Shown here: positions 5,506 through 39,327 of the stretch, piece after piece
Layout of the letters: the number at the start of each line of letters is the position of its first letter
How positions within the stretch are numbered: position 1 is the first letter of the stretch
Assembly: GCF_900129775.1 (NCBI RefSeq)
Contig: NZ_FQWV01000002.1
Coordinates: forward strand, 372,001 to 436,000
Origin: Halobaculum gomorrense
Lineage (GTDB): Archaea > Halobacteriota > Halobacteria > Halobacteriales > Haloferacaceae
DNA length: 64,000 bases
Reading direction: 5' to 3'
Notes under the pieces: generated by a model
What the model was told of the DNA's origin: nothing
Seen by the model: only the letters and a program-made list of their open reading frames with translations
Databases searched by the model: none
Position numbers and translations under genes: made by a program

Positions 5506-6687
5506 ATGAAACTGGCACTCATCGGATTCGGTCAGGCGGGGGGGAAGATCGTCGATAAATTCGTCCAATACGACCAGCGAACGGGGAGCGACATCGTCCG
5601 TGCGGCGGTCGCAGTCAACACGGCGAAGGCGGACCTCATGGGGCTGGAGGAGATCCCGAAGGACCAGCGGGTGCTCATCGGGCAGTCCCGCGTCAAGGGC
5701 CACGGGGTCGGTGCGGACAACGAGCTCGGCGCGGAGGTCGCTGAGGAAGACATCGACGAGGTGCAGGGGGCTATCGACTCGATCCCGGTCCACGAGGTCG
5801 ACGCGTTCCTCGTCATCGCCGGGCTCGGCGGCGGCACCGGCTCGGGCGGCGCGCCGGTGCTCGCGAAGCACCTGAAGCGCATCTACACCGAACCCGTCTA
5901 CGGGCTGGGCGTGCTGCCCGGCTCTGACGAGGGTGGCATCTACACGCTGAACGCAGCGCGCTCGTTCCAGACGTTCGTCCGTGAGGTGGACAACCTCATG
6001 GTGTTCGACAACGACGCGTGGCGCAAGACCGGGGAGTCCGTCTCGGGCGGCTACGACGAGATCAACGAGGAGATCGTCAAGCGGTTCGGCATCCTCTTCG
6101 GCGCGGGAGAGATCGACCAGGGCCAGGAAGTCGCCGAGTCCGTCGTCGACTCCAGCGAGATTATCAACACGCTATCGGGCGGCGGCGTCTCGACGGTCGG
6201 CTACGCCAGCGAAGAGGTCGAAGAGAGCGCCGGCGGCGGCGGGCTGCTGTCGCGGCTCACCGGCGACGCCGGCGACGACGACCTCGACACCGCCCACACG
6301 ACCAATCGCATCACCTCACTCGTTCGCAAGGCGGCGCTGGGCCGGCTCACGCTTCCCTGCGAGATCGAGGGCTCCGAGCGCGCGCTGCTGGTCATGGCGG
6401 GGCCGCCCGAGCATCTCAACCGCAAGGGGATCGAGCGCGGCCGCAAGTGGCTCGAAGAGCAGACCGGCTCGATGGAGGTCCGCGGCGGCGACTACCCCGT
6501 CAGCGGCTCCGGATTCGTCGCGAGCGTGATCCTCCTGTCGGGCGTCACGAACGTTCCGCGGATCAAGGAGCTCCAGCAGGTCGCCATCGAGGCGCAGGAC
6601 AACATCGACGACATCCAACAGGAGAGCCAGGACAACCTCGACAGCCTCATCAGCGATGACGAGGACGAACTTGAGTCGCTGTTCTGA
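5506..6687 (+). CDS. cetZ1: Tubulin/FtsZ-superfamily cell-shape protein CetZ (CetZ1-like)
   Basis: A 393-aa GTP-binding cytoskeletal protein of the archaeal CetZ family; CetZ1 of Haloferax is needed for rod formation and motility. The N-terminal GTPase domain starts MKLALIGFGQAGGK and has the tubulin signature GGGTGSG at residues 108-114. The C-terminal domain runs to an acidic tail ending ELESLF, as in CetZ1 orthologs. It lacks the hydrophobic FtsA/ZipA-type binding tail of FtsZ. A strong SD site and TATA-like box precede it. The next gene overlaps its end by 32 bases. CetZ1 rather than another paralog is inferred from length and tail. Confidence 0.93.
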   Translation: MKLALIGFGQAGGKIVDKFVQYDQRTGSDIVRAAVAVNTAKADLMGLEEIPKDQRVLIGQSRVKGHGVGADNELGAEVAEEDIDEVQGAIDSIPVHEVDAFLVIAGLGGGTGSGGAPVLAKHLKRIYTEPVYGLGVLPGSDEGGIYTLNAARSFQTFVREVDNLMVFDNDAWRKTGESVSGGYDEINEEIVKRFGILFGAGEIDQGQEVAESVVDSSEIINTLSGGGVSTVGYASEEVEESAGGGGLLSRLTGDAGDDDLDTAHTTNRITSLVRKAALGRLTLPCEIEGSERALLVMAGPPEHLNRKGIERGRKWLEEQTGSMEVRGGDYPVSGSGFVASVILLSGVTNVPRIKELQQVAIEAQDNIDDIQQESQDNLDSLISDDEDELESLF

Positions 6688-37001: not shown

Positions 37002-37133
37002 ATGGCAGAACAGACGACCGACGATCGATACGGCGACGAAGAAGTCGACACCTCTCATCTCGACGATCTCGAAGACGGATGCGGCTGCGCAGAGGTGTGG
37101 GAACACCTCTCTGAAGACGGGGAGTCGGAGTAG
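37002..37133 (+). CDS. 43-aa acidic microprotein with CGC motif
   Basis: MAEQTTDDRYGDEEVDTSHL is followed by DDLEDGCGCAEVWEHLSEDG and ESE. Very acidic, with a Cys-Gly-Cys pair next to an aromatic helix. A TATA-like box at -27 and a clean start and stop argue for a real gene. I believe similar short proteins exist across haloarchaea, but this was not checked. CGC could bind a metal or act as a redox pair. It marks the left edge of the low-G+C subtilase islet. Confidence 0.7.
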   Translation: MAEQTTDDRYGDEEVDTSHLDDLEDGCGCAEVWEHLSEDGESE

Positions 37134-37249
37134 AGGGTCAGCGAGCGACTAGCTATCAGTCCAACACGCACTTGCTCCATCCGAAGAGCGATCGGAAGCA
37201 ATGAACCAAACGGTCAAGATCTCTGTCCAATGACCCGCATAGTCATACC

Positions 37250-37603
37250 TCACTGATCCTCAGAGGAGGAGCTGATTGAGGCTGGGGCATCGCACGTGAC
37301 GCTTACAGAAACACTCGGTCCGGTCAGACTTCCGCCGACCGAGACCGAGTATGAGGACACGTTCTCCCTCTCGCATAACTCGTCCATCCGGTCGCGGATC
37401 GTGTCCACCCACTCTGAGAGGAGCGTCATCCGATCACCGGAGAAGCCGATCTCTGCGAATTCCTCCTCTGGCTCCGTCTGCAGTAGCTGATCTGCAAGCA
37501 GCAGGTGCGATTGGACCTCTGCTATCGAGTCTGCGTTCTGGATTCCCTGCTCCAATATCTCCAGTTCTTCTTCAGTTAGCACACGAGTTGATTTACATGG
37601 CAC
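37250..37603 (-). CDS. 117-aa protein of unknown function, third gene of the subtilase islet
   Basis: Helical N-terminal two-thirds (TEEELEILEQGIQNADSIAE, LLLADQLLQTEPEEEF, LLSEWVDTIRDRMDELCERE) and a beta-like, Ser/Val-rich C-terminus (SSYSVSVGGSLTGPSVSVSV). GTG start four bases after the subtilase stop, so it is very probably co-translated. No signal peptide. No family recognised. As the last gene of the cassette it could be a substrate, an adaptor or an immunity-like partner of the protease; all of these are speculation. Base composition is far lower in G+C than the surrounding core genes. Confidence 0.75.
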   Translation of the reverse strand: MPCKSTRVLTEEELEILEQGIQNADSIAEVQSHLLLADQLLQTEPEEEFAEIGFSGDRMTLLSEWVDTIRDRMDELCERENVSSYSVSVGGSLTGPSVSVSVTCDAPASISSSSEDQ

Positions 37604-37607
37604 CAGT

Positions 37608-38780
37608 TTATTCGTTCTCCTCAGGATCCGATCTCCGATCGATCGTCTGGGAAGCGCCGTTGACGTTCAGTCGGTTCCAGTTCTTTTTATCATGACGAAC
37701 GGTCATATCGCCGGACGATTCGATGATCGCATACCACTCCATCGGAGACAACTCTTCCGTTACCGAAGAAGCTAGCCGGCCGATAGCTCCGGCAACGATC
37801 GGTGCCGCAAAGCTCGTTCCCTCTGCAAACGCAACCCTGTCGTCGTCGATCAGTTCCGGACGGAGCGGCGGAGCCAACACGTTCGGGTTTCCTCGATAGG
37901 CCTCAATATTGCCGTCGTACCACTCCTCTGCCCGGTATTTCTCACACGGGTGATCCGAGGTGCATCCTTCAAAACTACAGTACGGTCCTTGGAGGGTCCG
38001 TTTCGTCCGATCTGATGCGCTGGTTTCAGCCCAGATCCGTCGATCCGCTTCAGGAGGGAGATCCCTGGTCGGACAGCGGTTGATCACGCCTCCGACTGAC
38101 AGAGTGAATTCAGATAACGCGGGACACAAAACGTGTTCCACCATCCGTTCGCTTTTATTTCCGGTCGCCGCCACGACGGCGGTCCCACTGGCGGTCGTTG
38201 CTTCGAGAGGTCTGTTGAGCACACAGCCCTTACAGAACTTGTGCAACACTCCAGCCGAGATATTTAGTATATCGATACTGTCGTCTATACATTGGCCGAG
38301 GACATCTGTCAGCCGGGCGTTGGGTCGGTCTGTCTCCAGTTCTCTGGGTTGTCCCGACGTCGATGGACCGCCTGTCGCGGCCGAGAACCGCTCGTCTTTC
38401 GCACTCCTTTGCAGTTCACGAGCGGACTTCAGTCGGTAGAAGTAGAACGTCGCATCTGGAAGCAAATACGAGAGGACGCCGAAAACTCGAGTTCCGTGTG
38501 ACCACTGTTCCTGTTTGTTTTCCCCCTCTGGGGAGAAGTCACGGGACTGTCCGATACTTAGGTCTTGCAAACCGGGGACTTCCGGTCCTTCAGGTAACTC
38601 GTAGAGAGTATCGGCGATCGCAACATTGAGATTGTTTCCAGTTTCCAGATCGCCTGGGAGGTTGATGAACTCTGAATAGGCAGAATTGACAGCTGAGAAA
38701 ACGAATGCGGGTTGCTTATCCGAGGCGGCGTGTTGGTCAGTTTCCCTCCGAACCTCGCCCGGCCGCGAACCGCAATTCAC
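37608..38780 (-). CDS. S8 subtilase, cysteine-rich, without signal peptide
   Basis: A 390-aa subtilisin-like serine peptidase. The catalytic Asp57 is in NVAIADTLY, His95 in WSHGTRVFGV, oxyanion Asn208 in AATGNKSE and Ser323 in GTSFAAPIVAGA, so the triad is intact. Eight cysteines (164, 183, 186, 219, 236, 268, 273, 279), including a CKGC pair, suggest a zinc site or disulfides inside an insertion. No Sec or Tat signal is seen, so it probably acts in the cytoplasm. It has a GTG start and overlaps the upstream I9-like gene by 44 bases in another frame; a single ancestral gene split by a frameshift cannot be excluded. Low G+C. Confidence 0.85.
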   Translation of the reverse strand: MNCGSRPGEVRRETDQHAASDKQPAFVFSAVNSAYSEFINLPGDLETGNNLNVAIADTLYELPEGPEVPGLQDLSIGQSRDFSPEGENKQEQWSHGTRVFGVLSYLLPDATFYFYRLKSARELQRSAKDERFSAATGGPSTSGQPRELETDRPNARLTDVLGQCIDDSIDILNISAGVLHKFCKGCVLNRPLEATTASGTAVVAATGNKSERMVEHVLCPALSEFTLSVGGVINRCPTRDLPPEADRRIWAETSASDRTKRTLQGPYCSFEGCTSDHPCEKYRAEEWYDGNIEAYRGNPNVLAPPLRPELIDDDRVAFAEGTSFAAPIVAGAIGRLASSVTEELSPMEWYAIIESSGDMTVRHDKKNWNRLNVNGASQTIDRRSDPEENE

Positions 38781-39006
38781 CCTCGGCGTTCATCGACGTG
38801 ACGGCGTTGAGTTCGTCCAGGTCAGCAATTCGATCTTCGGAGATCGAGATCTCTAACATATCGAACCGAAGTTTTTCGAGTACACTTCCGCCGAGTTCGT
38901 CAACTGCTCCGGCGACTGCCTCAACATCACCGTCCGTGGCGACGGTAAGAACCATCTCGCGTCCTTCCTCCGGAGCACGAATGGCCTCGGCGATACTTCG
39001 ACTCAT
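38737..39006 (-). CDS. Stand-alone subtilisin propeptide/I9 inhibitor-like protein
   Basis: An 89-aa protein with the beta-alpha-beta-beta-alpha-beta order of subtilisin propeptides and I9 inhibitors: strand VLTVATD, helix DVEAVAGAVDELG, strand SVLEKL, strand MLEISIS, helix EDRIADLDEL, strand AVTSMNAEG. It precedes and overlaps the subtilase, so it may act in trans as a folding chaperone and inhibitor. TTAAGA about 30 bases upstream of the ATG (near 39036) is a likely TATA element for the three-gene cassette. The family call is by pattern and context. Confidence 0.7.
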   Translation of the reverse strand: MSRSIAEAIRAPEEGREMVLTVATDGDVEAVAGAVDELGGSVLEKLRFDMLEISISEDRIADLDELNAVTSMNAEGELRFAAGRGSEGN

Positions 39007-39178
39007 CTTGCGAGTGGAGGATTGGGATCGGCCATCTTAACACCAGCGCAGGTTACTATCGTCGATAATTGAGAAATTCCCCGATTTCGGTTCATCCCAC
39101 GGCTGATCTGATCCTATCTGAACCCCGTGACAGGAGATCGCCGTACCGGGCGTTCCGGTACTGTATCTGTCCAAACAC

Positions 39179-39327
39179 TGCCGGGGGTGGGCTCCGAACC
39201 CACGATCTCCGCATGGCCCAGGTACGAGGCTCGGCGGGCCCCGTTGGGGCGGAGGCTTCCAAGGCGTTCCGCACCGAATCTCGAAACCCTATGAGTGCGG
39301 CGCTATGTCCAGCTAAGCCACCCCGGC
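39179..39327 (-). tRNA. Elongator tRNA-Met(CAU) with a 75-base intron
   Basis: Exon 1 (39290-39327) and exon 2 (39179-39214) join to a 74-base cloverleaf. The acceptor pair is GCCGGGG/CCCCGGC with discriminator A; the anticodon stem is CCGCA/TGCGG with loop CTCATAA; the T arm is GTGGG-TTCGGAG-CCCAC. CCA is not encoded. The intron sits after position 37, as in Haloferax, where elongator tRNA-Met also has an intron of about this length. Elongator rather than initiator or tRNA-Ile2 is inferred from the intron and the G-C first pair. Upstream TTCAAGAGT is a possible promoter box. Confidence 0.92.
39215..39289 (-). other. Archaeal tRNA intron (75 bases)
   Basis: Begins GGGTTTCGAG after the anticodon loop A37 and ends CTGGGCC before ATGCGG. 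It is G+C-rich, folds back on itself, and would be removed by the splicing endonuclease at a bulge-helix-bulge. No box C/D motif was seen in it. Confidence 0.85.

Follow-up and report, generated by a model that had tools for sequence, protein, structure and literature searches.

A mobile haloarchaeal propeptide-subtilase cassette probably decoded by programmed -1 ribosomal frameshifting

Background

Beside a tRNA-Met gene of Halobaculum gomorrense, three minus-strand reading frames lie in close order: one for a small protein resembling a subtilase propeptide, one for a protease of family S8, and one for a third protein of 117 residues. The first two overlap out of register, which raises the question of how the protease is translated, whether as a gene of its own, as the remnant of a broken gene, or as an extension of the propeptide reached by a change of frame. 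The question was addressed within a window of 64,000 nucleotides (positions 372,001 to 436,000 of contig NZ_FQWV01000002.1, assembly GCF_900129775.1), the term denoting the whole stretch of DNA analysed. An earlier note made from the same sequence had described the block as a horizontally moved, intracellular module of protease, separate inhibitor and partner; it had overlooked the motif GGGAAAC at 38740-38746, the -1 relation of the two frames in relatives, and a frame break downstream of that motif in the window.

The heptamer G_GGA_AAC is reported to be among the most shift-prone ones on mammalian ribosomes, and it is the reported shift site of the halovirus HCTV-1 (PMC5009743). As of a paper of 2021, fucA was the only gene known with -1 frameshifting in Archaea, and a review of the same year stated that its use by other archaeal genes was unknown (PMC8037382, PMC8211752). 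The later literature searched, in which few subscription papers were covered, yielded no newer archaeal case.

Results and discussion

The cassette and its tRNA-Met site

The cassette and its surroundings comprise the following features:

37124..39178, no strand assigned: low-G+C variable segment holding the cassette, delimited by comparison with ten same-genus genomes
37250..37603, minus strand: third gene, 117 aa, a partner kept in the window's clade, with C-terminal motif SYSVSVxGSLTGPSVSV
37608..38780, minus strand: S8 protease frame of 390 codons, counted from a GTG (38780) that lies upstream, inside the propeptide frame (ORF list, S8 domain, fold prediction)
38690..38739, minus strand: one-base register break between the -1 frame and the long protease frame of the window copy (comparison by eye with L121 and L029)
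38737..39006, minus strand: I9-like propeptide frame, 89 aa, 0 frame, ending ...GAG GGA AAC TGA (ORF list, fold prediction)
38740..38746, minus strand: slippery heptamer G_GGA_AAC, invariant in 16 members, with the 0-frame TGA directly after
39179..39327, minus strand: tRNA-Met (CAT) with intron, synteny breaking exactly at the tRNA 3' end

In the ORF list the three frames show a 44-base overlap and then a 4-base gap, the 89-aa protein starts 172 bases from the 3' end of the tRNA, and the block is low in G+C (0.552 over 37124-39178, with 0.694 and 0.736 in the two flanking 5-kb segments), all as the earlier note had described. Its proposal that a block next to a tRNA had moved horizontally is borne out by synteny. 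In all ten same-genus genomes the match to the window stops at about 37117-37129 and resumes at exactly 39179, and between those points each holds 0.2-2.2 kb of other DNA. Since the flanks match and the interior is replaced, the cassette is cargo of a fast-changing, hypervariable tRNA-adjacent site.

On the far side of the segment, the window shows no second copy of the tRNA 3' end that could serve as an integration repeat, and no known RNA element was found in the cassette region. In one other genome (G006), 22 bp of the tRNA end recur near the same tRNA-Met site. There the site (L143, 3853-6076) carries a 546-aa protein which by eye resembles a 552-aa protein close to the propeptide-protease pair of another locus (L039, 11307-12965), hinting at a common pool of cargo genes. 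The intron-containing tRNA-Met at 39179-39327 is missed by a default tRNA scan. Elsewhere in the window, ARAGORN calls a tRNA-SeC at 5818-5908, inside a conserved 393-aa tubulin-like (FtsZ/CetZ-type) frame on the opposite strand; the call is almost certainly false.

A divergent family confined to haloarchaeal genomes in the samples searched

Genome samples at the levels of class, order and family, together with plasmids, gave 24 members of the family including the window copy, all of them haloarchaeal; these are related by descent, and counts of members are not counts of independent events. In the order-wide sample, 21 of 392 genomes (about 5%) carry a member. Carriers include Haloterrigena turkmenica (pHTUR02), Halomicrobium katesii, Natrinema salsiterrestre, the archaeon HArc-gm2, and plasmids of Natribaculum breve and Halomontanus rarus. 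The recurrence in other archaea for which the earlier note had proposed a neighbourhood search was thus found, for the propeptide-protease pair in 24 haloarchaeal loci and for the full trio in four. A single-protein search of genome contigs returned no relatives because the family is too divergent, and the phage and IMG/VR collections held no close relative that would point to a viral origin.

The change of frame at the junction

The propeptide and protease frames differ in every one of the 24 members, and an in-frame fusion occurs in none. Exactly at the junction, 17 of the 24 carry a -1 slippery heptamer, which is G_GGA_AAC in 16, the window among them, and C_CCA_AAT in one (L045). The propeptide frame of the 16 reads ...GGA AAC, and in the 15 outside the window similarity to the protease starts with the -1-frame reading GGG AAA C. 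None of 1,280 other positions in the propeptide region holds an in-frame heptamer of the slippery type. Within -24 to +39, no stretch other than GGGAAAC is fully invariant, most nearby positions scoring 0.4-0.8. Among nine close relatives with no heptamer mismatch, the most variable codon position moves across GGGAAAC from the wobble position of the 0 frame (0.55-0.60) to that of the -1 frame (0.62), and a short overlap of the frames at the junction is under double constraint. On this comparative evidence, the first two frames are probably part of a mobile gene family of haloarchaea that is read by programmed -1 ribosomal frameshifting.

Elements that might assist the shift are less uniform. 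Shine-Dalgarno-like pairing 5-22 nt upstream of the slip site averages -6.1 kcal/mol against -3.6 kcal/mol in controls and is present in only some members. No conserved stimulatory RNA structure was found downstream, strong folds occurring in a few members, and a consensus RNA fold of the junction showed almost no covariation, with part of the predicted pairing taking in the slip site itself. In Escherichia coli dnaX, a case cited in PMC8211752, one mRNA gives two products by a -1 frameshift, their ratio depending on a slip site and a Shine-Dalgarno-like element upstream of it; two products of one mRNA are expected here as well, whereas dnaX has a downstream stem-loop of which no conserved counterpart was found. 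One member without a canonical heptamer (L046, 2971-4406) has GAT TTT C at its junction, possibly a weaker one-codon slip site.

Six members (L036, L039, L041, L042, L043 and L119) form one group on the unrooted tree, with support of 100/98. In this group a GTG start overlaps the propeptide stop or follows it by 2-5 nt, so that from their sequences propeptide and protease read as separate proteins. Because their propeptide ends near the point where the other members shift, a free propeptide appears to be the constant feature of the family, and the shift site seems to lie near the boundary between propeptide and mature protease.

The same six relatives lend themselves to another explanation, namely that the two genes are translated separately throughout, the protease being started by reinitiation or from a non-standard codon and the heptamer being incidental. 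The upstream GTG at 38780 in the protease frame of the window would fit it as well; homology of that frame to the family begins downstream of the slip site. We regard this explanation as improbable. In all 17 heptamer members, the part of the protease frame that separates the preceding stop from the heptamer is free of ATG, GTG and TTG (stop and heptamer are adjacent in L122 and L045, and one codon lies between them in L120), and the first such codon downstream of the slip site comes 8-109 codons into the protein. Taken alone, this absence is weak, as start codons make up 0.5% of -1-frame codons and 1.4 were expected in 281; it was dropped as a stand-alone statistical test for that reason. Conservation of the protease frame, however, begins at the heptamer, and separate genes leave the invariant GGGAAAC unexplained.

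The view that the frames are out of register through decay or sequencing error, in a pseudogene family of ordinary subtilases, is very hard to sustain: the window copy and L029 do have an extra frame break, and L044 and L122 are interrupted, but an identical frame change recurs at one heptamer among copies that are divergent and come from several families, decay is disfavoured by coding constraint that follows the matching frame on both sides of the heptamer, no in-frame homologue was found, and most copies are otherwise intact with conserved catalytic residues. Transcriptional slippage was judged unlikely on general knowledge, since GGGAAAC has no long homopolymer.

The frame break of the window copy

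The -1 frame of the window ends 62 codons after the slip site, and its long protease frame lies one further base out of register. As sequenced, a full protease cannot be obtained from this copy by a single -1 shift, and the copy may be inactive. Read by eye, L121 and L029 continue from the slip site without the break, which is either a real mutation or an error of the draft sequence. If the break is real, the window copy would be dead cargo in the tRNA-Met hotspot, an outcome limited to this copy and compatible with frameshifting in the family as a whole. The chances of this seem to us evenly balanced: the early end of the -1 frame, the broken state of the closest relative (L029) and the quick turnover of the site argue for it, whereas the protease frame is open for all of its 390 codons with every catalytic residue in place, and a one-base error of the draft assembly would look identical. 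Three further members (L029, L044 and L122) are interrupted inside the protease; together with the window copy, these broken genes indicate that the gene is often lost or inactivated in the family, as is common for mobile cargo.

The propeptide-like protein and the protease

The 89-aa protein was modelled as a beta-alpha-beta-beta-alpha-beta fold (pLDDT 85), whose best structural matches are the subtilase propeptides 3afg, 2z58 and 1spb (probability 1.00, TM 0.57-0.64, E only about 0.01). No sequence match to Inhibitor_I9 (PF05922) was found in a Pfam search of 19 members. The earlier characterisation of this protein as I9/propeptide-like is therefore retained for its predicted subtilase-propeptide fold and given up as to sequence, and the label "I9-like" refers to predicted fold and position, not to a Pfam match. 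The division of the first two frames into separate inhibitor and protease genes has likewise to be amended: a free propeptide is still expected, but in most relatives the two look like one gene with a programmed -1 frameshift.

The protease of the window has an S8 domain (PF00082, E 9e-13), and AlphaFold predicts a subtilisin fold for the family's enzyme (pLDDT 92). The catalytic Asp, His and Ser reported as intact are invariant in the family alignment, and the reported lack of a signal peptide on the protease agrees with the N termini of all members, where none is evident by eye. A secreted halolysin was rejected as a candidate, no Tat signal peptide being seen by eye before the propeptide in any member. 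Throughout the protease family four cysteines are invariant (C196, C221, C226 and C232 in the protease part of L033, 7029-8033), possibly a metal site.

Proposed decoding and known counterparts

Under programmed frameshifting, the default reading would give a free cytoplasmic propeptide-like protein, acting as inhibitor or chaperone, and a minority of ribosomes would slip back one base at G_GGA_AAC to produce propeptide plus S8 protease, a zymogen. Because most ribosomes would finish the free propeptide, the inhibitor would stay in excess of the protease. With the slip site near the expected propeptide/mature boundary, the free product would resemble a pre-cleaved propeptide. In one clade, initiation at a GTG by the propeptide stop would take the place of the shift.

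Several known systems share parts of this arrangement. The I9 propeptides of subtilases such as Tk-subtilisin and subtilisin BPN' have the fold predicted for the small protein, precede a protease of subtilisin fold, and occupy the same N-terminal position; unlike them, the haloarchaeal propeptide is missed by Pfam, is encoded out of frame with its protease and, for that last reason, is expected mostly as a free protein, in the cytoplasm. To our knowledge, no frameshift is involved in the intracellular subtilisin (ISP) of Bacillus and its inhibitor IPI. In that system, too, an intracellular subtilisin is restrained, either by a pro-peptide that inhibits it or by a separate inhibitor, but IPI has an Ig-like fold and there is no I9-type propeptide domain (PMC6220982, PMC3901451). 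The g-t tail gene of HCTV-1 has the same heptamer, G_GGA_AAC, read by halophilic archaeal ribosomes (PMC5009743); it is, however, a viral tail gene, whereas the gene described here is a cellular or plasmid protease cassette. Sulfolobus solfataricus fucA1 is, likewise, a cellular gene of an archaeon that is divided between a 0 and a -1 frame at a slippery heptamer, but it is reported from two strains of a single species, other Sulfolobales having full-length genes (PMC8037382, PMC8211752). The protease family, by contrast, keeps its -1 arrangement in divergent haloarchaea, and its 0 frame encodes a whole domain.

If the frameshift reading is true, the family would be a conserved cellular case of -1 frameshifting in Archaea with a plausible purpose, the setting of the inhibitor-to-protease ratio. 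The host group has good laboratory genetics (Haloferax), and the GTG clade offers a natural control with an ordinary start. Public gene tables overlook genes of this kind or cut them short: that of H. turkmenica gives the propeptide ORF as hypothetical and lacks the protease, and that of H. rarus has a truncated protease and lacks the propeptide. In such tables the protease is shortened or missing for L153 (NZ_CP135524.1) and L154 (NC_013745.1), the plasmid table used being one that omits pseudogenes; these gaps probably arise from the frameshift not being modelled.

The third protein and the genomic neighbourhood

Most loci do not adjoin defence-type genes. Three do, one lying inside a type I restriction system (L035), one beside a type IIG enzyme (L043) and one beside a McrB-like ATPase (L044), and these are suggestive only; other loci adjoin housekeeping genes, e.g. 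a class I tRNA synthetase and HisG. The stress or defence role put forward earlier is a guess. In a more specific and rather doubtful version of it, the one recoded gene would be a mobile conflict module, with the free propeptide as antitoxin by default and the propeptide-protease, made by frameshifting, as toxin zymogen; a change in frameshifting or in propeptide supply, e.g. by a virus altering translation, would unleash the protease. The IetAS anti-phage system was rejected as a counterpart, the matches to IetS covering short segments (E 0.009 and 0.024) and the neighbourhoods showing no conserved ATPase partner.

In L029, L030 and L121, the remaining members of the clade to which the window copy belongs, a relative of the 117-aa protein lies directly downstream of the protease, which makes four of four with the window. 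The protein is a genuine partner in this clade and belongs to no known family; that it regulates the protease or serves it as an adaptor is a guess. Its Ser/Thr-rich tail had suggested a RiPP precursor, to which the conserved tail motif in the four members and the solo occurrence elsewhere give no support. Relatives without the protease are found in a few other genomes (L164, L165, L166 and L167): one of them lies downstream of a membrane protein (L166), and another stands beside a gene named by eye as methylmalonyl-CoA mutase-like (L164).
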